From: a bacterium
Lineage (GTDB): Bacteria; SZUA-79; Acidulodesulfobacterales; Acidulodesulfobacteraceae
DNA: 64,000 nucleotides
Reading direction: 5' to 3'
Assembly (NCBI GenBank): GCA_021818985.1
Contig: JAKASO010000005.1
Coordinates: forward strand, 1 to 64,000
Positions 16,041-31,214 of this stretch are shown one piece after another (the first letter of the stretch is position 1; each line of letters begins with the position of its first letter). A program made the position numbers and the translations under genes. The notes under the pieces were generated by a model. The model was not told the DNA's origin. It did no database searches and saw nothing but the letters and a program-made list of their open reading frames with translations.

Positions 16041-16973
16041 TTATAAGGTTGTTGTCCAAGAGCTTAAAAATATGTTGTCGCTAAAATTAAATGTTTTTAT
16101 ATTGGTAAAATATCTTAATGCGGCATTTTTTATCGTAAATCCTCCAAATACGGCCGAACCGCTTCCGGATAACAAACTAAATTTGGCTTTAAAATCCATC
16201 ATTGAATCTTTTATTTCTTTAAGAATTGGATATTTACCCAGAATAAACGGTTCAAAATCGTTTTCCGGTCTATTGTCTTTTAAAAAACTATCTAAATTCA
16301 AGTTGTATATGTTATAGTAATTTAGCTTTTTTGTCAATATAAAATCATCATAACCTCCGTATGCATCCTTTGTAGAGATGCCAAAACCGGGAACGATTAT
16401 GACAATATAGTATTTCGTTAATCGCCCCTTAGGAATTTCTTTTATGACCTCGCCGGATCCGGTTACGATAGCATCTCTTCCGGTTAAGAAAAATGGAATG
16501 TCCGAGCCTGCTTCCAGCGCCAGTTTAATTAATTCATTCATTGAAAGCGGATAATTAAATATTTTGTTCAATTTGATCAACACGCCGGCGGCATCGCTCG
16601 AACCCCCACCCAATCCCGCCTGTAAAGGAATATTTTTTTCAATATATAAATTAAGTCCCTTATCTTTTACATTGATCTTATTAAAAAATAATCTGGCGCA
16701 TTTTACAATTATATTGTTCTCGTTTGAAAGATTAAGTTCTAAAAATTCGTTATATGCGGCTCTTCTTGAAGGCGGCAGCCCTCCCGCAATAATTTTTCCG
16801 CATACCGCCTTTATGCTATATGTGCTGCCAATACTAAACGATATTTTGTCAAAAATAGCAATTTTACGGATAAGGGATACGATATTGTGCAGACCTTTTG
16901 GATTTTTATCTCCAATTTTCAAAATAAAGTTGACTTTTGCAGGGGCAAAATACCGATAATCTAAATTTTCCAC
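16041..16973 (-). CDS. ispE: 4-diphosphocytidyl-2-C-methyl-D-erythritol kinase
   Basis: GHMP kinase with the ATP loop PLQAGLGGGSSDAAGVL near the middle and a C-terminal LSGSGSAVFGGF. The N-terminus FAPAKVNFILKI is typical of IspE. It phosphorylates CDP-methylerythritol in the non-mevalonate isoprenoid pathway. The start is GTG 16973, overlapping the nuoN stop by 13 bases, so translation may be coupled to the end of the nuo operon. At 310 residues it is slightly long. Confidence 0.93.
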   Translation of the reverse strand: MENLDYRYFAPAKVNFILKIGDKNPKGLHNIVSLIRKIAIFDKISFSIGSTYSIKAVCGKIIAGGLPPSRRAAYNEFLELNLSNENNIIVKCARLFFNKINVKDKGLNLYIEKNIPLQAGLGGGSSDAAGVLIKLNKIFNYPLSMNELIKLALEAGSDIPFFLTGRDAIVTGSGEVIKEIPKGRLTKYYIVIIVPGFGISTKDAYGGYDDFILTKKLNYYNIYNLNLDSFLKDNRPENDFEPFILGKYPILKEIKDSMMDFKAKFSLLSGSGSAVFGGFTIKNAALRYFTNIKTFNFSDNIFLSSWTTTL

Positions 16974-18499
16974 AACGAGGTAACCGATTGAGATGCAAAA
17001 TGTATGAACATTTGCGGATATATGCCCAATAATAACGTAAATATCAGTGAAATTATGATCGTTATTATTAAAGACGGGGTTATATTAGCCGCAATAGCCG
17101 TCATATTAGCGGAAGATTCACCAAGTTCGACTTGATCAGCATCCCCATTACTAATCATATACATTCTTACAATTATCTTAATATAATAAAAAGCGGCAAG
17201 AGCGCTGTTTAAAAGGGCTATAAAAATAAGCCAGTCATAATTCGATTTTATCGCCGCCGAAAATACATAGAATTTACCCATAAATCCTGAAGTAACCGGG
17301 ATTCCCGCTAAAGCCAATAGAAAAAAGCTCATAGAAGCGGAAATAAGCGGATATTTGTAGCCTATTCCGGAATAACTTTTAATATCAAATGAAGCAATAT
17401 TAAGGTTTTCAAAAACGATTACAATGGCAAACGCTCCCGCCGTCATAAAAACATAGGATAACAGATAAAATAAAGTTGCGGTATAACCGTAATGCCCGCC
17501 TCCAATAATACCGATAAGCATATATCCGGCCTGTGCTATTGACGAGTAAGCTAACAGCCTTTTTATATTTGTCTGTAAAAGCGCCGCAAGGTTACCGAAT
17601 GTCATCGTTAATACCGACAATATCCATAAAATATTGTAGAAGTTAAACACGGAACTATCGAATATGGAACTGAATACCCTGATAAATATTGCAAATGCCG
17701 CAACTTTTATTCCTGTAGCCATAAGATTAGTAACGGTGGTTGGAGCCCCGTCATAACTATCCGGTGTCCACGCATGGAACGGAAACAAAGACATTTTAAA
17801 AGCAAGACCTATTAAGAATAATATCAGCCCTATGGAAAGATAATCTCTTATACTCGCAGATAAACCGCTGTTTGATGATCCGGTATATAAAAAATTATGA
17901 ATATTATAAATATTTAAATGGCCTGTAGCGGCATATATAAAAACGGAACCAAATATCAAAAAAGCTGAGGCAAATGACCCAAGGATAAAGTATTTCAACG
18001 CCGCCTCGGTACTCCTTGTATTGCCTTTTATGTAACCCGTCAGAATATAAGCGCTTATTGACATAAATTCGATTGATAAAAAGATCATAATAAGATTGAC
18101 CGAGGATACGAGGAGCATCATTCCTGCAACGGTAAAAAGAATCAGACTGTAATACTCAGCTAAAGGCAGGTTAAACATCTCAATATATTTTTTAGACATT
18201 AAGATCGTTAACAGTCCCGCAAATAAGATTGCTATAAAAACAAAAACATCCATCCCATCGAATACTACCGATCCAAAAAATCCGTTTATATTCTGATTGG
18301 AGAGCATTAAAACATATAAGATCGAAAAAACGATGCCTATAAGCGAAAGATAATAAGAATTATCGTTATCCGGCAATTTCCTGAATAACCCTAAGAACAG
18401 CACTATAAAGGCAAATATAACTATCACTAATTCGGGCATTACGGAGAGTAAACTTCTTTCGACCAAGTAGTTATTGTATATCTGCAAGGTATTAAGCAT
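16961..18499 (-). CDS. nuoN: NADH-quinone oxidoreductase subunit N
   Basis: The antiporter-like membrane subunit has about 14 transmembrane helices in 512 residues, with the conserved KMSLFPFHAWTPDSYDGAPT and AYSSIAQAGYMLIG stretches carrying channel lysines and histidine. It is one of the three proton-pumping subunits of complex I. Its start overlaps the nuoM stop by 8 bases. It is last of the nuo genes and leads into ispE. Confidence 0.96.
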   Translation of the reverse strand: MLNTLQIYNNYLVERSLLSVMPELVIVIFAFIVLFLGLFRKLPDNDNSYYLSLIGIVFSILYVLMLSNQNINGFFGSVVFDGMDVFVFIAILFAGLLTILMSKKYIEMFNLPLAEYYSLILFTVAGMMLLVSSVNLIMIFLSIEFMSISAYILTGYIKGNTRSTEAALKYFILGSFASAFLIFGSVFIYAATGHLNIYNIHNFLYTGSSNSGLSASIRDYLSIGLILFLIGLAFKMSLFPFHAWTPDSYDGAPTTVTNLMATGIKVAAFAIFIRVFSSIFDSSVFNFYNILWILSVLTMTFGNLAALLQTNIKRLLAYSSIAQAGYMLIGIIGGGHYGYTATLFYLLSYVFMTAGAFAIVIVFENLNIASFDIKSYSGIGYKYPLISASMSFFLLALAGIPVTSGFMGKFYVFSAAIKSNYDWLIFIALLNSALAAFYYIKIIVRMYMISNGDADQVELGESSANMTAIAANITPSLIITIIISLIFTLLLGIYPQMFIHFASQSVTSLWKI

Positions 18500-20033
18500 T
18501 AAATAACCCTATTTTTGCTTTAATTAAATTATATGCGTATTTATGATGATTAATCATATTTACAAAATGAGTAACAGTAGGATCTATCCTGCTTAAAAAA
18601 GGCGTTGGATAAAGCCCTATATATAACATTAGGAATATAAGAGGTATAATCGTTACGATTTCTCTAAGATCCATATCTTTAAACTGCTCATTTTTGCTGT
18701 TCGTTATGTTCTGGAACATAACCCTTTGGAACATCCAGAGCAGATATACCGCTGCAAAGATGACGCCACTCGTTGCAATGACGGTAAATACCGTATATTG
18801 CTTAAACGAACCTACTAATATCAAGAATTCGCCCACAAAACCATTAAGACCAGGCAAACCTATGGATGATAAAACGGTAATCATAAATAACGCCGCAAGG
18901 ATCGGAACCTTTTTAGCAATTCCTCCAAAATCGGAAATCAATCTGGTATGTCTCCTTTCATACAGCATGCCGACAAAAAGAAAAAGCGCCCCGGTCGAAA
19001 TGCCGTGGTTTATAAGTTGAAGTATGGAACCATCAACACTTATTGCCGTCATCGCAAATAAGCCTAACATTATAAATCCCATATGAGAAATGCTTGAAAA
19101 GGCGACAAGCCTTTTTAGGTCTTTTTGCACCATCGAAACTAAGGCGCCGTAAATTATGCCTATAACGGCTAAAACAAGTATGAACGGCGTCAATATCAGG
19201 GTAGCTTCAGGCATCAAAGGGATAGCAAATCTGAAAAATCCGTATATACCAAATTTTAAAAGCACTCCGGCAAGAATAACGCTACCGGCAGTGGGCGCCT
19301 CGGTATGCGCATCTGCAAGCCATGTATGAAACGGAAAAACCGGAACTTTTACCGCAAAACCAATAAAAATGGCAATAAATAATATTATCTGAAGCCCCAA
19401 AGGTATGTGAGTATGATAGAGTTTTAAAATATTAAATGTAAAACTGCCGGTCTGATCATAATGCAGGATAAATATTACGATAAGTCCAAAAAGCATTATC
19501 AGCGAACCGGCTAATGTGTAAAGGATGAATTTTACGGCGGAATATATTTTTCTTGCCGATCCCCAAATACCGATAATAAAATACATCGGGATAAGCATAA
19601 ATTCCCAAAACAGATAAAATAGAAGAATATCGAGAGCGGCAAAAGTACCGATCATAAAGGTCTCTAAAGCTAACATCAGGATAACGAATTCTTTAACATG
19701 AACCTTGACGTATTTATAGCTGGAAAGCAGCGAAATAAAGCTCAGCAATGTCGTTAAAAGAATCAAAAACAGGCTTACGCCGTCAATCCCAAGATAATAA
19801 GTGGCTCCAAATGTCTTTATCCACCTGAACTTTTCAACGAACTGAAATTCATAAGCAGATGATTTGAAATAGACAAATAGAAAAATTGAAATGATAAATT
19901 CTACAAGTGATAAAAATGTAGCAAGGTTTCTAAGCAGCCGCTCATTTTCTTTATTTATAAAAAATAAAAAAATACCGGAAACCAAAGGAAAAAATATCAA
20001 GATTGATAAAATATATTTTAGAAATAGACCCAT
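18492..20033 (-). CDS. nuoM: NADH-quinone oxidoreductase subunit M
   Basis: This 513-residue proton-pumping antiporter-like subunit carries the family stretches ALETFMIGTFAALDILLFYLFWE (discontinuous-helix Glu), KVPVFPFHTWLADAHTEAPT and AFSSISHMGFIMLG. About 14 helices are visible. It follows nuoL by 32 bases and overlaps nuoN. Confidence 0.97.
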   Translation of the reverse strand: MGLFLKYILSILIFFPLVSGIFLFFINKENERLLRNLATFLSLVEFIISIFLFVYFKSSAYEFQFVEKFRWIKTFGATYYLGIDGVSLFLILLTTLLSFISLLSSYKYVKVHVKEFVILMLALETFMIGTFAALDILLFYLFWEFMLIPMYFIIGIWGSARKIYSAVKFILYTLAGSLIMLFGLIVIFILHYDQTGSFTFNILKLYHTHIPLGLQIILFIAIFIGFAVKVPVFPFHTWLADAHTEAPTAGSVILAGVLLKFGIYGFFRFAIPLMPEATLILTPFILVLAVIGIIYGALVSMVQKDLKRLVAFSSISHMGFIMLGLFAMTAISVDGSILQLINHGISTGALFLFVGMLYERRHTRLISDFGGIAKKVPILAALFMITVLSSIGLPGLNGFVGEFLILVGSFKQYTVFTVIATSGVIFAAVYLLWMFQRVMFQNITNSKNEQFKDMDLREIVTIIPLIFLMLYIGLYPTPFLSRIDPTVTHFVNMINHHKYAYNLIKAKIGLFNA

Positions 20034-20065: not shown

Positions 20066-21949
20066 TTATTTAATAAAATAATACGCAAGTAAAGCTATCA
20101 CCCCGATCATTAAAGTGAGGGCGTAGCTCATAACCATACCGTTCTGCACTCTTCTAACCCTGCCTGAAAAGGAGGCAAATCCCTGAGCAAGACCATTAAC
20201 GGCCCCGTCAATAACAAAAGTATCTACAACCCTCCATAGATAAACGGAAAAATTCTTTAGCGGAGTTACGATTAACTGATCATATATTTCGTCAATATAT
20301 ACCTTATTAAAAGATAGTTCATATACCGGTTTGAATATTCGTTTGATCTTTTCTGTATCGAACGCCTGTTTAATATAGAATAGATAAGCGGTGTAAATTC
20401 CAAGCGCTCCGGCTAAAACCGATATAGAGCTCAACAAAAACCATGGATAATAATTTACAAACGGCGAGAAAACAAAAGAGTTTTGAAAATCCCTATGTAA
20501 AAATAAATAAAACAAGGAATGGTCAAATGGCGGTATCCCTATAAATCCAACGACGGCGGCAAGGCTTGCAAGAATTATCATCGGTATTGTCATAACTTTA
20601 GAAGATTCGTGAACATGAACGGACGGATCAACATGCGATTCGCCAAAAAACACCCTGAAGATAATCCTAAAGATATAAAACGCCGTCATAAACGCCGTTA
20701 CTTCCCCCATAATCCATAATATATAATAGCCTTTGTTGAATGTATCCGCCAGAATAGCATCCTTACTAAAAAACCCCGAAAAAGGCGGAATACCGGATAA
20801 TGCAAGCGCACCGACGATAAATGTTACGGCGGTTATTTTCATCTTTGAATACAGTTTGCCCATCTTTCGCAAATCGAGTTCTCCGCTCATAGCGTGCATT
20901 ACGCTGCCTGCCGTTAAAAACAAAAGTCCCTTAAATACCGCATGCGATATAAGATGGAATATTCCGGCAGCATACGAACCTATTCCAACCGCCATGAACA
21001 TATAACCCAACTGGCTTATCGTAGAATAAGCAATTATCCTTTTTATGTCATACTGCGTTAATGCGATAAAAGCCGCCAAAAAAGCCGTAAAACCGCCGAT
21101 ATATGCAACAACATGGGAAGCAAACGGCGAATAAGAAAAAATTACATGACATCTTGCCACTAAATAAACTCCGGCGGTAACCATAGTAGCCGCATGAATT
21201 AAGGAACTGACAGGGGTTGGACCTTCCATGGCGTCTGGAAGCCAGATATGAAGCGGAAATTGTGCCGATTTACCGACAGCTCCCGCAAATAACAGAAGTG
21301 CTATGATAGTAACCAAGTAACCGGGAAGTGACGGCATCATGCCGAAAACCGACGTATAATTAAGAGTTCCGGTCGAAACAAATATCAACATCACGCCTAG
21401 ACCGAAACCAAAATCACCTACCCTGTTGACTATAAACGCCTTTTTAGCCGCATCAGATGCCGATTTTTTTTCGTACCAGAACCCTATGAGTATATATGAA
21501 CAGAAACCAACCGCTTCCCAAAAGACATATAGAAGCAGGAAATTATTGGCAAGAACAAGCATTATCATTGAAAAAACGAAAAGGTTCATATAAGAGAAGT
21601 ATCTTGCAAAGCCCTTATCCCCCTTCATATATCCTATAGAATAAATATGCACTAAAGCGCTCACTCCTGTTACCATCACGAGCATAATGACTGAGAGCCT
21701 GTCAATATATGTGGAGATATTAGTTTTGAAAGTGGATGCATATATCCATGGGTAAAGAATTGCGGTAAAACCATGGGTGGATGCAACGGTTATAAAAAGG
21801 GCAACGGAAAATAAAAAGGATATGACTATGGATATACTACCTATGTATCCGGCGTAATTTTTAAGATATTTTCCGAAAACTCCAAGCAGAATTGCTCCCA
21901 ACATTGGAAAAAACGGAATTGACCAAACAAGCAAATCTTTTGTGTCCAT
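20066..21949 (-). CDS. nuoL: NADH-quinone oxidoreductase subunit L
   Basis: At 627 residues it has the antiporter core (KSAQFPLHIWLPDAMEGPTPVS, AYSTISQLGYMFMA) and the long C-terminal extension. This extension holds the lateral helix (about 530-590, ...FNKVYIDEIYDQLIVTPLKNFS) and a final membrane anchor. NuoL is the distal proton-pumping subunit. It follows nuoK by 24 bases. Confidence 0.97.
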   Translation of the reverse strand: MDTKDLLVWSIPFFPMLGAILLGVFGKYLKNYAGYIGSISIVISFLFSVALFITVASTHGFTAILYPWIYASTFKTNISTYIDRLSVIMLVMVTGVSALVHIYSIGYMKGDKGFARYFSYMNLFVFSMIMLVLANNFLLLYVFWEAVGFCSYILIGFWYEKKSASDAAKKAFIVNRVGDFGFGLGVMLIFVSTGTLNYTSVFGMMPSLPGYLVTIIALLLFAGAVGKSAQFPLHIWLPDAMEGPTPVSSLIHAATMVTAGVYLVARCHVIFSYSPFASHVVAYIGGFTAFLAAFIALTQYDIKRIIAYSTISQLGYMFMAVGIGSYAAGIFHLISHAVFKGLLFLTAGSVMHAMSGELDLRKMGKLYSKMKITAVTFIVGALALSGIPPFSGFFSKDAILADTFNKGYYILWIMGEVTAFMTAFYIFRIIFRVFFGESHVDPSVHVHESSKVMTIPMIILASLAAVVGFIGIPPFDHSLFYLFLHRDFQNSFVFSPFVNYYPWFLLSSISVLAGALGIYTAYLFYIKQAFDTEKIKRIFKPVYELSFNKVYIDEIYDQLIVTPLKNFSVYLWRVVDTFVIDGAVNGLAQGFASFSGRVRRVQNGMVMSYALTLMIGVIALLAYYFIK

Positions 21950-21973: not shown

Positions 21974-22273
21974 TTACCACTTTAGTTCATTTGCTTTATC
22001 AATATTTATAGTTCCTTTTTCTCTGTAAAACGCAATTGCAATTCCAAGGGCTATTGCGGCTTCTGCGGCAGCAACCACCATAACGAAAATAACGAAGATA
22101 TCGCCGCTTATGAGGTTTAAATAGCCGGAAACCGCAACAAATCCTAAATTAGCCGCATTAAACATAAGCTCTAAACTCATAAAAACGACTATAAGATTTT
22201 TTCTTATAAGGACCCCAAGCCCTCCAATGGAAAACAGGATGCCAGCCACAATTAAATAAGCATTAATGTCCAT
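21974..22273 (-). CDS. nuoK: NADH-quinone oxidoreductase subunit K
   Basis: The protein has three transmembrane helices, with Glu residues in LMSLELMFNAANL and VAAAEAAIALGIAIA that belong to the proton path. ATG 22273 is preferred over the upstream in-frame start at 22306: it has AAGGT about 8 bases ahead, gives the usual ~100-residue protein and does not run into nuoJ. Confidence 0.95.
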   Translation of the reverse strand: MDINAYLIVAGILFSIGGLGVLIRKNLIVVFMSLELMFNAANLGFVAVSGYLNLISGDIFVIFVMVVAAAEAAIALGIAIAFYREKGTINIDKANELKW

Positions 22274-22286
22274 TTTTATTACCTTT

Positions 22287-22784
22287 TTAAAATTTGCGCC
22301 TTGCAAATATAAATGCCCCTATAATAGCAATTAAAAGCAGAATTGAAGCAACCTCAAACGGAAATATGTATTTAGTGAACAAAAATTCGCCTATTATCTG
22401 GGTGTTTCCAATTGTTTTAATAAAAGCAGTGGTATAGATCCCAGTTGGCACTTTCCCCGAACCTTTAATTGCATATAAAAAAATCTCAAAAAACAGCAAA
22501 ATAAAAGATATGACGGCAATAAACATCTGATGAAAATCCTTCGGTATATTTTTTGCGTTAGCAAGATTTAACAGCATTATAACTAAAACTACAAGCACCA
22601 TGATTGCGCCGGCATAAACAAGAACCTGCATGGCTGCAAGAAATTCCATATCAAGGATCACATAAAAACCGGCTATTGCAAAAAAGCACAAAACAAGATA
22701 TAGAGCAGAGGTTAAAGGATTCCTTGAAAGTATAACCATTAATGCCGAGTAAATTGCAATTATTGAAAAAACATAAAAGAGCAT
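22287..22784 (-). CDS. nuoJ: NADH-quinone oxidoreductase subunit J
   Basis: The 165-residue membrane subunit has five hydrophobic helices and the family segment EFLAAMQVLVYAGAIMVLVVLVIML. It takes part in coupling between the quinone site and the pump arm. It lies 13 bases before nuoK and 91 bases after nuoI; that upstream gap is larger than most in this operon and shows no hairpin. Confidence 0.95.
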   Translation of the reverse strand: MLFYVFSIIAIYSALMVILSRNPLTSALYLVLCFFAIAGFYVILDMEFLAAMQVLVYAGAIMVLVVLVIMLLNLANAKNIPKDFHQMFIAVISFILLFFEIFLYAIKGSGKVPTGIYTTAFIKTIGNTQIIGEFLFTKYIFPFEVASILLLIAIIGAFIFARRKF

Positions 22785-22875: not shown

Positions 22876-23388
22876 TTACAGTTTAATAAGCTTTTCTATT
22901 CCGTAAACAGCTTCATCTCTGGTATAAACAGCCAGCTCGTATTTATCCGACATGCTGATAGCCTCTTCGGGACATATTTCCTCGCAATAACCGCAGCAAA
23001 TACATCTGAGCATGTCAATTTCAAAAGAAAAAGGATGTCTTCTTCCATCGTTATATATGCCTTTTTCAAGTTTATCAAGACTGTGATTCATTTTCTGCCT
23101 TTCCGTAAGCTCGTATTCCGCACCGTAATCCACATAGCCTATTACTATCTTTATAGCTTCGGAAGGGCATACGGTCTGGCATAAGATACAGGCAACGCAC
23201 CGCAGCGATTTATCCTGATTTGTATTTAACTTTGGAAAGCCGCGGAATCTTTCGGCTATTTGGAGCCGCTCTCTGGGATATTGAACGGTGACCGGCTTTC
23301 TAAAAAAAGTAGATATAGTAGTCTTTAAACCGACCAGAAGGTTTTTCGAGATTTCTATTACTGATTTTTCTTCTTTTTTCGTATCCAT
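22876..23388 (-). CDS. nuoI: NADH-quinone oxidoreductase subunit I
   Basis: Two 4Fe-4S motifs, CVACILCQTVCP and CICCGYCEEICP, give the N6a and N6b clusters. The N-terminal VQYPRERLQIAERFRGFPKL is typical of NuoI. It passes electrons from NuoG toward NuoB. Length (170) is normal, and it lies between nuoH and nuoJ. Confidence 0.96.
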   Translation of the reverse strand: MDTKKEEKSVIEISKNLLVGLKTTISTFFRKPVTVQYPRERLQIAERFRGFPKLNTNQDKSLRCVACILCQTVCPSEAIKIVIGYVDYGAEYELTERQKMNHSLDKLEKGIYNDGRRHPFSFEIDMLRCICCGYCEEICPEEAISMSDKYELAVYTRDEAVYGIEKLIKL

Positions 23389-23426: not shown

Positions 23427-24419
23427 TTACTTCCCTAGTAAAATCATCACAAAACCGGTCACAATAATATTGGCAAGGGCAAGCGGAAGTAAAAACTTCC
23501 ACCCAAAATGCATAAGCTCGTCATATCTAAGTCTCGGATATGTCCACCTGAACCATAAATATACTAATATGACGGCAAAAACCTTTATTATGAACCATAT
23601 AACTGACGGCAAAAAAGGACCCTGCCAGCCGCCAAGAAATAGCGTTGTTATAATGGCGCTGTTTACCACTATTTGGGCATATTCCCCGATAAAATAAAAG
23701 GCAAACTTCATACTGGAGTATTCCGTATGAAATCCGGCAACAAGCTCTCCTTCGGCTTCTCCAAGATCAAAAGGCACCCTGTTCATTTCTGCCGTAGAGG
23801 CTATTAGATATATCAAAAAGCCTGCCGGCTGAAATACTATAAACCAGATATGGGACTGGGCAGAAACGATATTTGCCAAACTTAAACTGCCGGCTATCAT
23901 TATAACCCCGATTATGGAAAGGGCAAGGGAGATTTCATAGCTTATCATTTGAGCCGCAGTTCTTAAACCGCCTAATAAAGCATACTTGCTATTGGAAGCC
24001 CATCCGCCTACGACAACGCCGTAAACTCCCAAAGAGGTAAGCGCAAGGATAAACAGTATGCCTATATTGACATCGGTAATCTGCAACGGAACGATATGTC
24101 CGAGTATTTTTACAGGAGCTCCAAACGGGATAACGGAAAATGTGACTAAAGCCGGAATGACGGCAATTATCGGCGCTAAAATAAATAAAGCCTTATTCGC
24201 CTCCGCAGGAATTATATCTTCTTTAAAGAAAAGCTTTATCCCGTCGGCAATAGGTTGCAGTAATCCATGAAAACCGGCCTCCATAGGACCGAGCCTGTTC
24301 TGGATTCTTGCCGCAATTTTGCGTTCTAAAAGTGTTAGGTAGGCGGCGGCTAACAGTATAATGCCAAAAACCACTATTATTTTAATTATTGTCGAAATAA
24401 GCCAAAAGATCATGGTCAA
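23427..24419 (-). CDS. nuoH: NADH-quinone oxidoreductase subunit H
   Basis: The 330-residue subunit has eight or so membrane helices and the quinone-site stretches ERKIAARIQNRLGPMEAG, AEMNRVPFDLGEAEGELVAGFHTEYSS and FRWTYPRLRYDELM. It forms the membrane side of the quinone cavity. Its start overlaps the nuoG stop by 4 bases (ATGA), indicating translational coupling. Confidence 0.97.
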   Translation of the reverse strand: MTMIFWLISTIIKIIVVFGIILLAAAYLTLLERKIAARIQNRLGPMEAGFHGLLQPIADGIKLFFKEDIIPAEANKALFILAPIIAVIPALVTFSVIPFGAPVKILGHIVPLQITDVNIGILFILALTSLGVYGVVVGGWASNSKYALLGGLRTAAQMISYEISLALSIIGVIMIAGSLSLANIVSAQSHIWFIVFQPAGFLIYLIASTAEMNRVPFDLGEAEGELVAGFHTEYSSMKFAFYFIGEYAQIVVNSAIITTLFLGGWQGPFLPSVIWFIIKVFAVILVYLWFRWTYPRLRYDELMHFGWKFLLPLALANIIVTGFVMILLGK

Positions 24420-26500
24420 TATAATGATAATATTTTTGCCGGTTCGTTATAATAAAATCTGCTTCTTGGTTTGATTTTGTTATAATAAGCCACATTCATG
24501 GATTTAAGTTTTTGTATAAATTCGCCATATTTGCCTTTAATGTCAAAGGGGGTGTTAAGCCTTTCAGAAAGGTCGGAAAGCACTGTGGCAATGTCGTATC
24601 TATATGCGCCGAAATTAAACTCATTATTTATATGCATGAGTTTTCCTTCAAAATTTTCGTAAAAGGCGTCCCGTTCTTCAAGAAAATCATAAACCGGAAT
24701 AACAGCATCAGCCATAGTGGTCAACTGGTTCACTTTTGAGGAAAGAACCCCGAGAAAATCCAAATCCGCAACACTCCTTAATAAACTTATGCCGCTATTT
24801 TCATCTTCTTCGTAATCACCTATATATATTAAATTTTTGATGTCATTTTTTGCGATCCCTTTTATTATTTCTTCATAAGATAACCAGCCCTCAAAAGGAT
24901 AAACCCCGCCGGCAATAAGCCCCCTATAATTAAACGGCTTTATAAGCAGATAAATATATATAACCTTCTGTTCACCCCTCAAAAATTCAACTATCTCTTT
25001 TAAAATAAGAAGTTCTTTATCGCGATAGGCGGACGACATAAAGATATCGCCCAGAACAAATGAAACGGTATTATATTGCAAAAGAGGACTTGCCGTAATA
25101 TTAAGCCGCATATTATTCAAATACTGATATACCCCATCCGCTTCGATATCCGTTTTAACATAGGCTATATCTTCAAACCTTGTAAAATTACGGCTCCTGT
25201 TATCTTTTGCAAGTTTCAGTAAAAATAATTTTCCGCCGTGTTCCCTGTGGTTTTTCATAATATTGTATGAAGCAAAAGGGATCTCGTTTTCGATATCGCC
25301 GATATAAAAAATAAGCTCGGAATTTCGAATAGTTCTTATATCAAAATTTTCTTCCGTTTTAAATACCTCTTTAAATCTGTCAAAATTTTGCCGGTAAAAT
25401 TGGGGCTGCGCAATATCAAAACCTGCCGGCTTAATCACATCTTTCACAAAATTGGATATTATGAATCCGTTGCCGGTTGAAACGGACGAAGAACAAAGAA
25501 CGGCTATTTTTTTATATTCGTTTCCATCGAATATATTTTTAAGCCTGAAAGCAAATCTGTCTAACGCTTCATTATAAGGTAATTCATTAAACCTCGAACC
25601 CTTTTTTACAAGGGGAAATCCGATATAGCCATCAGGAGTTCTGTCAATCGCATCATAAAAAAAACCCTTTTTACAAAGATAGCCTCCGTAAAGGGCAGCG
25701 GCTCTTACCAAAGATTCGTTTTTTTCATATCTATAATATTCTATCTTGCAGGCAGCCGAACATTTATCGCATACTGAAGAAAACGGCGATTCCTGCCAGT
25801 ATCTTTCCTTAAATTTAGACGGCTTGGAAATTAATGCGCCTACAGGACAAACCTCGATGCAATTGCCGCAATAATAACAATCCAAGTATTTCTTTTCTTC
25901 TTTTTGCTCTAAAAAAGCGCCCTCTTTGAAGATAACACCGTCTTGAACTTTATCTTCATGCCTTAATCCTATGTGACTGTTATAACCCTTGTCTTTGACC
26001 TCATAAAAGGGGTTCCCGTACATATCCATACAAATCCTGATGCATCTGCAACACATAATACACCTTGTATCAGTATATTCGATAAGATCGCTTCTAAAAA
26101 TTTTTGTTCTGTCGGGAAAACCCTTTGTATTTTTTTGGATGGTAAGCCCGAATTCAAATGTCAGATCCTGCAAAAGACATTCCCCTGATTTATCGCATAC
26201 AGGGCAATCCATCGCATGATCGAGAAGAAGATTGGATAATACATATTTTCTGGCCTGCCAGACCTTGTCGGTATTGGTCATAATTTCATAGCCCTCTTTT
26301 ACTCTTGCGACGCAGGAAGGAACCGGACGCCCGAGACCTTTTACCTCGACCACGCATATTCTACACGATCCAAAAGGTCTGAGCCTTCTTAAATAACACA
26401 GGGTAGGTATTCTAATCCCTGCCTGAGAAGCCGCCTCGAGAATAGTAAGGCCGGTTTTGGTTATTATTTTTTTGCCGTTTATGGTAATTTCAATATCCAC
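24416..26500 (-). CDS. nuoG: NADH-quinone oxidoreductase subunit G (iron-sulfur/molybdopterin-fold subunit)
   Basis: Cluster ligands are readable in order. The 2Fe-2S set is C35, C46, C49, C63; the His-Cys3 cluster is H95, C99, C102, C108. Two ferredoxin-type motifs follow (C147/150/153/157 and C208/211/214/218). C244-x2-C247-x3-C251-x24-C276 matches the N7 site seen in some bacterial NuoG. The rest (about 280-694) is a reduced molybdopterin-oxidoreductase fold with no sign of bound molybdenum. It receives electrons from the peripheral entry subunit, here the fused flavoprotein encoded just upstream. SfrA of Geobacter is a related alternative name. Confidence 0.93.
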   Translation of the reverse strand: MDIEITINGKKIITKTGLTILEAASQAGIRIPTLCYLRRLRPFGSCRICVVEVKGLGRPVPSCVARVKEGYEIMTNTDKVWQARKYVLSNLLLDHAMDCPVCDKSGECLLQDLTFEFGLTIQKNTKGFPDRTKIFRSDLIEYTDTRCIMCCRCIRICMDMYGNPFYEVKDKGYNSHIGLRHEDKVQDGVIFKEGAFLEQKEEKKYLDCYYCGNCIEVCPVGALISKPSKFKERYWQESPFSSVCDKCSAACKIEYYRYEKNESLVRAAALYGGYLCKKGFFYDAIDRTPDGYIGFPLVKKGSRFNELPYNEALDRFAFRLKNIFDGNEYKKIAVLCSSSVSTGNGFIISNFVKDVIKPAGFDIAQPQFYRQNFDRFKEVFKTEENFDIRTIRNSELIFYIGDIENEIPFASYNIMKNHREHGGKLFLLKLAKDNRSRNFTRFEDIAYVKTDIEADGVYQYLNNMRLNITASPLLQYNTVSFVLGDIFMSSAYRDKELLILKEIVEFLRGEQKVIYIYLLIKPFNYRGLIAGGVYPFEGWLSYEEIIKGIAKNDIKNLIYIGDYEEDENSGISLLRSVADLDFLGVLSSKVNQLTTMADAVIPVYDFLEERDAFYENFEGKLMHINNEFNFGAYRYDIATVLSDLSERLNTPFDIKGKYGEFIQKLKSMNVAYYNKIKPRSRFYYNEPAKILSLY

Positions 26501-26527: not shown

Positions 26528-28438
26528 TTAATCCTCAAATTTCACAAACATAACCATATAACATCGCATACATCTGGTCGCTTCATATACGACATCATTA
26601 GTTGTCAAACCTTTTTCGACCTCTATAAAATTACTTATACGGTCGGTAACAGGTTCTTCAACCTGTTTTGCGCGTGTAAGCTTGGGTGGAAAGTCTGGAT
26701 AATCCACAATTTCCCTTTTGTCATATACTCCTATCTCTTCTAAGAGCTTTTCCATTATATCGTCATCCGTTATATTAAAAGAACCTGTTCTTATATATTC
26801 GTCTATCCTTCTTGCCGCATTTTTTCCATCCCTGTTTGAACTAACTATACTTATAGGTCCAGTCATGGCATCGCCGCCCGCAAATACTCCGGGCATATCG
26901 GTCATATTAGTCAATTTATCCACAATTATCGTTTTACCCCTGTTAGTCCTAATCTGAGGGATATCTTTTAAAAAATCAAAATCCGGCACCTGTCCAACTG
27001 CAGTAATAAAAGCGTCGCATTCTATATCAAAATCCGAATCTGGAATTTCTACCGGAGCTCTCCTGCCGCTTTTGTCAGGTTCGCCTAACTTCATTTTTCT
27101 GCATCTGACGCCGATTACACGACCGTTTTCTTGAAGTATACTTATTGGATTTACAAGAAAATCAAACTTAATGCCTTCTTTAAGGGCGGTGTCAATTTCA
27201 TAAGATGCCGCGGGCATTTGCTCCCTTGACCTTCTGTAAACAACTATGACTTCTTTAAAACCAAGCCGCAGGGCGGATCTGCAGCAATCTATCGCTACAT
27301 TGCCTCCCCCTTCTATTATGACCTTTTTGCCGACCCCGATTTTGTTTCCAAGCGCAATGTCTCTTAAAAATTTAACACCTTCATAAAAACCTTCAAGATT
27401 ATCATTTTCTCCGGGCAAACCGATATTCTGTCCTCTATGAGCGCCTATGGCAAGGTAAACAGCTTTAAAATCCTGATCGAAAAGGTCATTGATTTTAAAA
27501 TCCCTTCCAAGCCTCTGATTTAATTTATATTCGACCCCAGTTAAAAGAATATAATCAATCTCTTTATCCAAAAATTCTTTAGTAATTCTAAATCTCGGTA
27601 TTCCTACAGCCATCATACCGCCCAATACGGACAAAGCTTCAAAAATCACGGGTTTATAGCCCATCAGCCTTAAATAATAGGCGCAACTTAAACCTGCGGG
27701 ACCCGAACCAACTATAGCCACTTTTATACCGTTATCTTTTATATCAAAAACAGGTTTTATATTAGAATAAAATTCGTTATCGGCTGCAAATCTTCTTATA
27801 AGGCATATCTGAATCGGCTCATCTATGTTAGCCCTTCTGCAATTATCTTCACATGGATGAAAACAGCTTCTGCCGAGTATTCCCGCTAAAGGCGTATTTC
27901 TCCTGGCCGATTCGAGGGCATCTTCGAACCTGCCGTCCCTAACCCTTTCGATCCAGTTGGGAATATCAAGTTTTGAAGGACATCCATTAATGCACGGAGC
28001 AATCATCTTAATAACATAATTATTATTTTCAGGTATTACCTCATGTTTTGCTATCGCCTGCTCAAAATCAGCCCTAAAAGATTCTATGAGCTGGATAATA
28101 GGCAAGGGACCGATCGTTCCAATCGTGCATTTGGAAAACGTAAGAATATACTCGCATTCATCCTTTAATCTGTCCAGATCTTCCGGCTCCGCTTTTCCGC
28201 TGCATATCTTTTCCAACAGATAGCCTGCAACGGAAGTTCCAAATCCGCACGGAATACAACCTCCACAGGATACCTTTATAAGTTCTTTCATAAAACATCT
28301 TGCCAGATCAACTTTATTGTCTTTATCATCAAGCAAAACAACGCCGTTCCAGTTCAGTACCGAAGATATTTTTTTGCGCCCCGAACGTTCAAATGCCGAA
28401 AGATCTAATTTTGAACTTAACTTATCAATTATTTTCAT
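26528..28438 (-). CDS. NuoF 4Fe-4S domain fused to a GltD-like FAD/NAD(P)H oxidoreductase
   Basis: Residues about 28-130 match only the C-terminal domain of NuoF, with cluster ligands C58, C61, C64 and C104 (SCGGCIPC, then SKCTIG). Residues about 140-625 match the GltD/NfnB family: cysteines at 149, 153, 192, 196, 200 and 212, an FAD Rossmann motif GSGPAGLSCAYYL from 244, and a second nucleotide motif GGGNVAID at 377-384. The following YRRSREQMPA is often seen in NADPH users. The FMN-binding fold of NuoF is missing. It occupies the nuoE-nuoF position, so it is probably the electron-entry subunit. It resembles SfrB of the Geobacter SfrAB reductase. Confidence 0.85.
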   Translation of the reverse strand: MKIIDKLSSKLDLSAFERSGRKKISSVLNWNGVVLLDDKDNKVDLARCFMKELIKVSCGGCIPCGFGTSVAGYLLEKICSGKAEPEDLDRLKDECEYILTFSKCTIGTIGPLPIIQLIESFRADFEQAIAKHEVIPENNNYVIKMIAPCINGCPSKLDIPNWIERVRDGRFEDALESARRNTPLAGILGRSCFHPCEDNCRRANIDEPIQICLIRRFAADNEFYSNIKPVFDIKDNGIKVAIVGSGPAGLSCAYYLRLMGYKPVIFEALSVLGGMMAVGIPRFRITKEFLDKEIDYILLTGVEYKLNQRLGRDFKINDLFDQDFKAVYLAIGAHRGQNIGLPGENDNLEGFYEGVKFLRDIALGNKIGVGKKVIIEGGGNVAIDCCRSALRLGFKEVIVVYRRSREQMPAASYEIDTALKEGIKFDFLVNPISILQENGRVIGVRCRKMKLGEPDKSGRRAPVEIPDSDFDIECDAFITAVGQVPDFDFLKDIPQIRTNRGKTIIVDKLTNMTDMPGVFAGGDAMTGPISIVSSNRDGKNAARRIDEYIRTGSFNITDDDIMEKLLEEIGVYDKREIVDYPDFPPKLTRAKQVEEPVTDRISNFIEVEKGLTTNDVVYEATRCMRCYMVMFVKFED

Positions 28439-28475: not shown

Positions 28476-29681
28476 TTATCTGTCAATTTCCCCGAGTAAA
28501 ATGTCCAAACTGCCGATAATAGCTATAAGATCTGCAAGAAGATAGCCTTTAGCCATTTTACATAAAGCGCTTATATTGCAAAAAGACGGTGGCCTTACGC
28601 GCATCCGGTATGGAAATCCCGAACCATCCGAAACGATATAATAGCCTAATTCCCCCCTCGGACCTTCGATGGACTGGTATGCCTCTCCTTTTGGCGGTTT
28701 TATCCCTTCCATCCCGTATTTAAACAAAAATATCATGCCTTCCATCGTAGTTAAAGCCCTGTGTTTTGGAGGAATAACATATTGAGGGTATTCATCGTAG
28801 CTGAGATATTCACCTTCGGGAATATTTTCTACAGCTTGATTAACAATCCGTAAGCTTTGCCTCATCTCTTCTATTCTCACTGCATACCGGTCAAACACAT
28901 CGCCGGCATCTCCCGTTGGAATATCGAAATCAAAATCTTCATAGCTTGAATAAGGATTTATCTTCCTTACATCATAGCGTAATCCGCTGGCGCGCAGGGA
29001 AGGACCCGTAACACCAAAACTAACCGCATCTTCAACGGATATTTTACCGACGTTCTTTGTTCTTGCAAGCCATATCTTGTTTTTTGTAAGCAAAGCTTCA
29101 TATTCGCTTATTTTATCGGGAAAAATTTTTATAAAATCCCGTGTTTTGCCGGTAAAGTTTTTATGTATATCCATAGCGATGCCGCCGACCCTGAAAAAAG
29201 AAGGGGTCATTCTTGCCCCCGTCATTGTTTCGATTATATCGAGAATAAGCTCCCTTTCACGAAAACAGTATAAAAATTCCGTTAATGCCCCCAGATCAAC
29301 AGCATGAGTTCCAAGCCAGACAAGATGCGAACTGATCCTTGTCAGTTCTGTAAGAATAACCCGGATATATTCGGCTCTTTTAGGGGGTTTTACTCCGCAC
29401 AGTTTTTCAACGGCAAGTATATATCCAAGATTATTAGATGCGGCGGAGACATAATCCATTCTGTCGGTAATTGTTTCTGCCTGATGATATGTCCTGTACT
29501 CGGCATATTTTTCCATACTCGTATGAAGATAGCCGATGACAGGCTCGGCTTCGACTACCGTTTCGCCGTCTAATTTAACAAGAACACGCAGAACTCCGTG
29601 AGTACTTGGATGTTGAGGACCAATGTTAATGGCAAAATTATCAAGCTCAATGAGATAATCTTTATATTCGAACATGAGCAT
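28476..29681 (-). CDS. nuoD: NADH-quinone oxidoreductase subunit D
   Basis: The 49-kDa-type subunit (401 residues) opens with NIGPQHPSTHGVLR, has EPVIGYLHTSMEKYAEYRTYHQ, and closes with GSLDILLGEIDR, a remnant of the hydrogenase metal site. It lines the quinone pocket with NuoB. It is separate from nuoC here, 112 bases apart, and a hairpin stands directly before its start. ATG 29681 or ATG 29675 are both possible. Confidence 0.96.
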   Translation of the reverse strand: MLMFEYKDYLIELDNFAINIGPQHPSTHGVLRVLVKLDGETVVEAEPVIGYLHTSMEKYAEYRTYHQAETITDRMDYVSAASNNLGYILAVEKLCGVKPPKRAEYIRVILTELTRISSHLVWLGTHAVDLGALTEFLYCFRERELILDIIETMTGARMTPSFFRVGGIAMDIHKNFTGKTRDFIKIFPDKISEYEALLTKNKIWLARTKNVGKISVEDAVSFGVTGPSLRASGLRYDVRKINPYSSYEDFDFDIPTGDAGDVFDRYAVRIEEMRQSLRIVNQAVENIPEGEYLSYDEYPQYVIPPKHRALTTMEGMIFLFKYGMEGIKPPKGEAYQSIEGPRGELGYYIVSDGSGFPYRMRVRPPSFCNISALCKMAKGYLLADLIAIIGSLDILLGEIDR

Positions 29682-29793: not shown

Positions 29794-30303
29794 CTACTTA
29801 ATTTCTGCAAGCCCCGGCGTATTAAAATTCAGCTTTTCGACGGGCGGCCTTTTCCTAAGCGGATAATCCTTAAGAAGGGGATATCCTTCCCAGTCTTCAG
29901 GATTTAGTATTCGTTTAAGGTTGGGGTGATTTTTGAACTTAAGACCGAACATATCATAAACCTCCCTTTCAAACCAATTGGCGGATTCATATAAAGGCGT
30001 TAAACTTGGATAATCGGCTTCATCAATATTTGAATGGCATTTAACAAATATTCTGAAATTATTTGCCGTGGAATAAAAATTATAAATAATTTCGATCCTT
30101 TCGGCTTTTCTTGGATAATCTACGGCAAAAAGATCGCTTAGCATATCGAACCTAAGCCTGGGATCATCTTTTAAAAATTTAGCCACTTGAATCAAATTAT
30201 CTTTCGCGGTCGTAATGCGCACATCACCGTTTGCCGTATCAACCGAAGTAATCAAATCACGCATAGCGTCATTTATTACACTAAGAGCAAATGAAACCTC
30301 CAT
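29794..30303 (-). CDS. nuoC: NADH-quinone oxidoreductase subunit C
   Basis: The 30-kDa-type subunit has the signature [26 protein letters not shown] and ends [19 protein letters not shown]. It helps hold the NuoB/NuoD module. ATG 30303 is chosen because GGAGG precedes it by 11 bases; an in-frame TTG at 30321 would place that Shine-Dalgarno inside the gene. Spacing to nuoB is about 90 bases. Confidence 0.92.
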
Positions 30304-30393
30304 AAGCGCTTGATCCTCCAAGTAATAATTGCTGGTTAAAATAAATTTGCTTTAAAACTAAGCTTTTGCAGGCTCGGTATCGCACCTATCTGT

Positions 30394-30864
30394 TTATATG
30401 TTCAGGGTTCCTTTTTCGATCTTTTCCTGCAGTTTAACTATCCCGTATATAAGACCTTCGGGACGGGGGGGACACCCTGGAACATAGACATCCACCGGTA
30501 TTATCTTGTCAACGCCCTGAACAATGCTGTAAACGTTGAACAATCCTCCAGAACAGGCACAATCGCCCATTGCAATAACCCATTTTGGATTGGGCATCTG
30601 ATCATAGAGCCTCTTTACTACAGGCGCCATTTTATAGGAAACCCTTCCCGAAACTATCATAAGATCGGATTGTCTTGGGGTCGAGCGAAAGATTAATCCA
30701 AGCCTGTCTATATCATACCTTGAAGAGGCCGAGGTCATCATTTCTATGGCGCAACAGGCAAGACCGAATGTAGCAGGCCAGATAGACCATTTCCTGCCCC
30801 ATGAAACGATCTTATCCAATGAGGCAGTAATAACATTATCTCCCAAATGCTCTTCTAATCCCAC
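30394..30864 (-). CDS. nuoB: NADH-quinone oxidoreductase subunit B
   Basis: The N2 cluster cysteines are present: the tandem pair in [11 protein letters not shown], one in [10 protein letters not shown] and one in PGCPPRPE. This subunit hands electrons to quinone. The start is GTG 30864 with AAGGGG 7 bases upstream. It overlaps the nuoA stop by 10 bases, so translation is probably coupled. Confidence 0.97.
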
Positions 30865-31214
30865 TCTAATGCCCCTTTTTTCCAGATATAAATAAGACCG
30901 AGAAGAAGTATGACTATGAACAAAAACATTTCAACAAAACCAAAAAGCCCAAGTTTAATAAAAACTGCCGCCCATGGAAACAAAAACAGCGCTTCGATAT
31001 CGAAAAGTAGGAAAAATATAGCAATTAAATAAAATTTGATATCAAACCTGATATGAGGATTTCCGACCGGTTCTACGCCACATTCATAAGGCTTTAATTT
31101 CCCCTTTTCATAAGTGTTTTTTCCGAGAAACGCCGACAAGCCAACCGTTGCAAAAGCAAACACGATTGCAAGAATAAGTATTATAAGGATAGGTAAGAAC
31201 GAATTTTCAGCCAC
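30855..31214 (-). CDS. nuoA: NADH-quinone oxidoreductase subunit A
   Basis: The 119-residue protein has three helices and the family loop [13 protein letters not shown] followed by [20 protein letters not shown]. It is the first gene of the nuo operon. The start is GTG 31214 behind AAGGAAG at good spacing. A candidate promoter lies 44-72 bases upstream. Confidence 0.96.

Follow-up and report, generated by a model that had tools for sequence, protein, structure and literature searches.

Complex I in its textbook form is NADH-specific. In SfrAB of Geobacter sulfurreducens, SfrB joins the C-terminal 4Fe-4S domain of NuoF to a GltD-like FAD/NADPH module and has a NuoG-like partner; SfrAB is soluble and its genes lie apart from nuo. 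Closer to complex I itself is the epsilonproteobacterial, flavodoxin-type NuoXY version (Weerakoon and Olson 2008, in PMC6682613), where nuoEF is replaced between nuoD and nuoG, NuoX and NuoY being found there instead. The Sporomusa-type Nfn enzyme StnABC and its solved relatives (9bov, 8oh5 and 9n5u) combine a GltD-like FAD/NADP module with NuoG-like parts, but they are soluble transhydrogenases and still have an FMN subunit of the NuoF kind. NUO-2 of Nitrospina gracilis and Kuenenia, for which reverse electron flow has been discussed, has an altered NuoF, its NuoF2 comprising N3, an NADH-like domain and extra ferredoxin clusters with no GltD module described (PMC3578206), and 11-subunit complexes that dispense with NuoE, NuoF and NuoG are also known (PMC11238625).

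The window, as we term the whole 64,000-nucleotide stretch of DNA analysed here, comes from the metagenome-assembled genome (MAG) of an uncultured acid-mine bacterium (1.62 Mb in 89 contigs, rated 100% complete). At 26528..28438 (-) an open reading frame of 636 codons, starting with ATG and free of in-frame stops, encodes a 636-aa protein that Pfam, family models and alignment identify as an SfrB-like fusion of the NuoF C-terminus to a GltD part, whereas in StnC it is to a NuoG-like part that the GltD part is fused. Its single chain has the domain succession of SfrB-like proteins of ~640-690 aa, with NADH_4Fe-4S, the N3-cluster domain of NuoF (residues 44-127, 28058..28309 (-), Pfam E 1e-15), leading into Fer4_20 (residues 143-223 with C149, C153, C192, C196 and C200, 27770..28012 (-), E 2e-20) and then Pyr_redox_2, the two-Rossmann module for FAD and NAD(P)H (residues 239-532, 26843..27724 (-), E 1.5e-25). 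In GltD/DPD-type proteins Fer4_20 is the cluster domain. A Pfam scan of the fusion gave no Complex1_51K, SLBB or 2Fe-2S_thioredx, and only the last ~108 positions of the NuoF family model (303-410 of 410) align with it. The model alignment and the domain order thus indicate that the FMN/NADH part of NuoF has been lost and that a GltD/NfnB-like FAD-NAD(P)H module follows the N3 domain, in agreement with the initial annotation. In domain plan and in having a NuoG-like partner the fusion resembles SfrB. The best PDB matches of the fusion are the three solved relatives of StnABC named above, and an AlphaFold2 model of it, with 15 close sequences as input, had a pLDDT of 46 and a pTM of 0.31, too low for it to be relied on.

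Conservation of the cofactor sites was judged across 43 aligned fusions, which come from several phyla. All four N3 ligands proposed at the outset (C58, C61, C64 and C104) lie within NADH_4Fe-4S, and three of them, C58, C61 and C104, are invariant (43/43); C64 is variable, 24 of the 43 having Cys here and the other 19 Gly. Equally invariant are the cluster cysteines of the FAD module (C149, C153, C192, C196, C200, C623 and C626), the glycines of the FAD and NADP sites, R284, R402 and R403. By comparison with the NfnB ligands (PMC7596348), C153, C192 and C196 would be ligands of the proximal cluster, which has Arg/Lys at the position of the NfnB Glu ligand, and C149, C200, C623 and C626 would hold the distal cluster, its CxxC apparently having shifted from the N-terminus in NfnB to the C-terminus here (C623 and C626, putative distal 4Fe-4S ligands, at 26561..26572 (-)).

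Which nucleotide would such a module take? The alignment places a YRR motif at residues 401-403 (27230..27238 (-)), by precedent the site of the NADP 2'-phosphate: in NfnB YRR binds that phosphate, an assayed DsrL-2 with YRR was active with NADP(H) only, and DsrL-1 enzymes without YRR prefer or require NAD(H) (PMC7596348). The earlier proposal of NADPH as donor, made from YRRSREQ, is favoured by this correlation, and the fusion is probably of NADP(H) type, YRR being the single pointer to NADPH oxidation. That the fused complex I instead takes NADH, or both nucleotides, through its GltD-like module seems to us improbable; nucleotide preference can change within the superfamily, DsrL-1 using NADH, but R402 and R403 do not vary in any of the 43 fusions and the YRR-bearing DsrL-2 that was assayed did not use NADH (PMC7596348).

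The gene for the fusion stands in a single-strand cluster of the order nuoABCD-fusion-nuoGHIJKLMN. Upstream of it are nuoA (30855..31214 (-), Pfam), nuoB (30394..30864 (-), Pfam and motif reading, with tandem CC and further Cys for N2), nuoC (29794..30321 (-), Pfam and family model) and nuoD (28476..29681 (-), Pfam, with TIGR01962 above its cut-off). Downstream are nuoG (24416..26500 (-), Pfam, family model and alignment; 694 aa) and nuoI (22876..23388 (-), Pfam and motif reading, with two CxxCxxCxxxCP motifs), together with genes named from conserved synteny: nuoH (23427..24419 (-)), nuoJ (22287..22784 (-)), nuoK (21974..22306 (-)), nuoL (20066..21949 (-)), nuoM (18492..20033 (-)) and nuoN (16961..18499 (-)). 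The gaps are 37 bp between nuoD and the fusion and 27 bp between the fusion and nuoG, with no NuoX or NuoY in either, unlike the NuoXY arrangement, and nuoG and nuoH overlap by 4 bp. Gene order and domain searches alike bear out the earlier view that the nuo set is complete from A to N apart from nuoE and a full nuoF: the membrane subunits (NuoA, H and J-N) and those of the Q-module (NuoB, C, D and I) are all present, and the cluster motifs of NuoB and NuoI are intact. What is shared with the canonical 14-subunit enzyme is therefore NuoA, B, C, D, G, H, I, J, K, L, M and N, with the checked cluster motifs intact; what differs is the lack of NuoE and of the NuoF domain for FMN and NADH, the entry here being probably a FAD/NADP(H)-type module.

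Nor does the cluster encode an 11-subunit complex, for its NuoG is full and retains every ligand of N1b, N5, N4 and N7. Eight cysteines in the N4 region of this NuoG make an extra 4Fe-4S site that is absent from E. coli NuoG. The site, and the invariance of R284, have to be weighed in considering whether the enzyme bifurcates, with FAD splitting the electrons of NADPH between quinone, via NuoG, and ferredoxin, via the extra cluster. The counterpart of R284 in NfnB is the Arg of the GIPEFRLPK region, where an Arg is believed to adjust the bifurcating flavin (PMC7483475), and an Arg near FAD together with a YRR site for NADP (here R284, R402 and R403) is common to Nfn/Stn enzymes. Against this, the complex has no second flavoprotein, be it NfnA or a NuoF-like FMN subunit, and no NuoE, the Glu of the proximal cluster is replaced, and the extra 4-Cys site occurs also in the NuoG of some nuoEF-bearing operons (L098-L100), so that we regard bifurcation as very improbable.

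Could nuoE and nuoF lie elsewhere? The initial annotation had named this as what would overturn its reading. Searches across the window genome with PF01257 (NuoE) and PF01512 (the FMN/NADH domain of NuoF) gave no match, with E. coli and other controls positive, and the single match to PF10589 was the fusion itself. As far as a draft genome can tell, neither gene is present, and the FMN pocket and the NuoE 2Fe-2S domain, described at the outset as missing from the fusion, are missing genome-wide as well; the MAG being spread over 89 contigs, a small gene might just conceivably have been missed. A genome scan found 14 related loci, 72-77% identical, from Candidatus Acididesulfobacter (order Ca. 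Acidulodesulfobacterales) and from further MAGs, and in all 14 the order nuoABCD-fusion-nuoGHIJKLMN is kept as far as the contigs reach, the fusion being embedded rather than apart from nuo as the SfrAB genes are. Of the 30 genomes of the family that were surveyed, 28 encode it, the two without it being 59% and 86% complete; these two counts exceed what chance would give. NuoE/NuoF-like domains do occur elsewhere in some family members, several times both in one reading frame of ~600 aa (e.g. G005 and G018), which resembles HoxF of a NAD-linked hydrogenase more than NuoEF. Loss of nuoEFG in Acidulodesulfobacterales has been published (Tan 2019); contrary to that, nuoG is present in the loci examined here, and replacement of nuoEF by a fusion is not described in that paper. 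No paper describing such a replacement was found among the open-licence papers of PubMed Central.

Proteins that span both halves of the fusion occur in many lineages, as a wider survey of 386 genomes revealed. In 4 of the 20 fusion neighbourhoods examined, a fusion of 646-669 aa lies inside a nuo operon: the order is nuoABCD-fusion-nuoG-nuoG-nuoH in G346, nuoD-fusion-nuoG-nuoHIJKL with nuoG split into two genes in G263 and G125 (one small phylum), and fusion-nuoG-nuoBCD-nuoH in G362. PF01512 is wholly absent from G346 and G125, and is not on the nuoD contig in G263 and G362. Within the phylum of G346 the fusion is present in 43 of 200 genomes; it adjoins nuoG in all 14 neighbourhoods taken from these and has nuoD upstream in 13. 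This phylum is probably Campylobacterota, since nuoD is followed by a 74-77-aa protein that agrees in length and position with the 'NuoE' described as epsilon-specific (PMC1557499). The survey of nuo operons for a fusion between nuoD and nuoG, proposed in the initial annotation, has thus found it in other phyla too, the nuo-embedded form being present in at least two besides that of the window, one of them probably Campylobacterota. This recurrence is a point that the initial annotation does not make, and neither are the cluster cysteines of the FAD module and the extra site of NuoG mentioned there. The earlier remark on SfrAB fares less evenly, for the resemblance stands but 'not part of a complete pump' fails for the family as a whole, given the SfrB-like proteins inside nuo operons of other phyla.

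Other arrangements were met. One family (G337, G052 and G199) has fusion-nuoG-nuoJKLM and a second nuo cluster without EFG elsewhere. In family f24 (L105-L107 with L053, L057 and L059) a second complex I is split into nuoABCDHI and fusion-nuoG-nuoJKLM, beside a canonical nuoEFG complex. Stand-alone pairs of fusion and NuoG, in the manner of SfrAB, account for 7 of the 20 neighbourhoods. Where the fusion lies apart with only nuoG (G139, G336 and G276), the genome has a canonical nuoABCDEFG with nuoEF adjoining nuoD. In G342 and G063 (L103 and L104) an SfrAB-like pair stands alone and the nuo cluster seems to have no EFG beside nuoD, a pump that the pair might serve.

Such stand-alone pairs in several genomes, the two accompanied by seemingly EFG-less nuo clusters included, and the existence of 11-subunit complexes lend something to the view that fusion and NuoG together make up an NADPH dehydrogenase, soluble and SfrAB-like, which shares with the pump no more than the nuo operon, the pump being a ferredoxin-fed 11-subunit complex. 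However, NuoG would then be taken from the complex, and the placement between nuoD and nuoG is kept across the family and recurs in other phyla; we hold this view to be unlikely, if less so than use of NADH. The reading that we prefer, and consider quite probable from sequence and gene context, is that the fusion, an SfrB-like protein, is where electrons enter the complex I of this cluster. The fusion keeps exactly that part of NuoF which carries N3. Also in favour are its recurrence in nuo operons of other phyla, the canonical nuoEF of G139, G336 and G276, whose fusion stands apart, and the lack of PntAB described below. Conserved architecture, synteny and cofactor motifs all favour the different flavin entry that was proposed for this complex I at the outset. 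On the other side are the existence of soluble homologues (SfrAB) and the replacement of the NfnB Glu ligand by Arg/Lys, and co-location with nuo genes is not proof of co-assembly.

As electron-entry subunit the fusion would dock on NuoG through its retained NuoF-type 4Fe-4S domain, and electrons would pass reversibly between NADPH, FAD, the two [4Fe-4S] clusters of the GltD-type domain and the N3-type [4Fe-4S] cluster, and onward between this, the NuoG clusters, NuoI (N6a/b), NuoB (N2) and quinone, the path being coupled to proton movement through NuoH/L/M/N. Running forward, the enzyme would oxidise NADPH, for instance that from DsrABL during sulfide oxidation; in reverse, at the cost of the proton gradient, it would supply NADPH to the reduction of sulfite and the fixation of N2 and CO2. 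The reverse mode, raised in the initial annotation, may occur. Docking on NuoG, assembly as a membrane complex, NADPH specificity, direction and pumping are all predictions from sequence. Members of the order have been described as facultative anaerobes and autotrophs (rTCA) that fix N2, can reduce sulfate and perhaps also oxidise sulfide (PMC6776010). With such a metabolism a complex I linked to NADP(H) would be compatible either way, from NADPH of DsrABL to quinone or from quinol to NADPH. Neither the window genome nor 14 other genomes have PntAB. The window genome has, at a separate locus, an NfnAB-like pair, and also a dsrAB-dsrL-dsrMK-like cluster, the dsr and nfnA names resting on order, length and reading, with domain scans for just the two GltD-like proteins. 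YRR is present in its DsrL-like protein (L116:4860-6551, contig C44), and the DsrL of Ca. Acidulodesulfobacterium and Ca. Acididesulfobacter has YNK (PMC7596348); the genus of the window may differ from these in DsrL cofactor use.

A fusion-type complex I modifies a machine that is already known and does not amount to a new kind, and its electron-entry module would be an exchangeable part. It is conceivable, at somewhat under even chances, that an overlooked and recurrent class is involved, that of a proton-pumping NADP(H):quinone oxidoreductase which arose repeatedly through docking of an SfrAB-like module and takes over the role of the missing transhydrogenase PntAB, and which in its strongest form bifurcates between quinone and ferredoxin. 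If true, an NADP(H)-linked pumping complex I would directly link the NADPH pool with the quinone pool and with membrane energy, and metabolic models would change for acidophilic sulfur bacteria and for fusion-bearing Campylobacterota-like lineages annotated as missing nuoEF.

A maximum likelihood tree of the 43 fusions has four changes between the nuo-embedded and the non-embedded state. A single clade of all nuo-embedded fusions is rejected (AU p = 0.004), as is one uniting the family of the window with the Campylobacterota-like group (AU p = 0.027). With a single embedded clade rejected, the simplest reading seems to be that the SfrAB-like module joined complex I repeatedly, or that there was recruitment followed by loss. 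In a tree of NuoG, that of the window sits on a long branch without placement. Among NuoX-containing genomes the fusion-bearing version also occurs, and in those families of the G346 phylum that have no fusion the order is nuoX-nuoY-nuoG in six of seven regions, the seventh (L097) having canonical nuoEF. In L091-L096, the nuo regions of G402, G214, G069, G387, G393 and G401, NuoY is 234-339 aa long and gives a match to the C-terminal half of NuoG1 from relatives that bear the fusion. NuoY was also considered as a remnant of the fusion, a notion rejected on this same match. Because of it, the flavodoxin-type complex I, Campylobacter/Helicobacter-like, looks like the fusion type minus the fusion and the Fe-S half of NuoG1. 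The direction of change would be from fusion type to flavodoxin type, which suggests a possible source of the complex I of Campylobacter and Helicobacter.

Long forms of ~1020 aa were also seen (L063, L064 and L065). The one that was scanned, L065:5930-8980, has a full NuoF followed by the GltD module, which suggests that the short fusion could have arisen from the long form by loss of the FMN domain. Neighbours of the L065 form are a protein with a match to the NuoG N-terminus and some small ones. Plasmid records have mostly plain GltD-like proteins.
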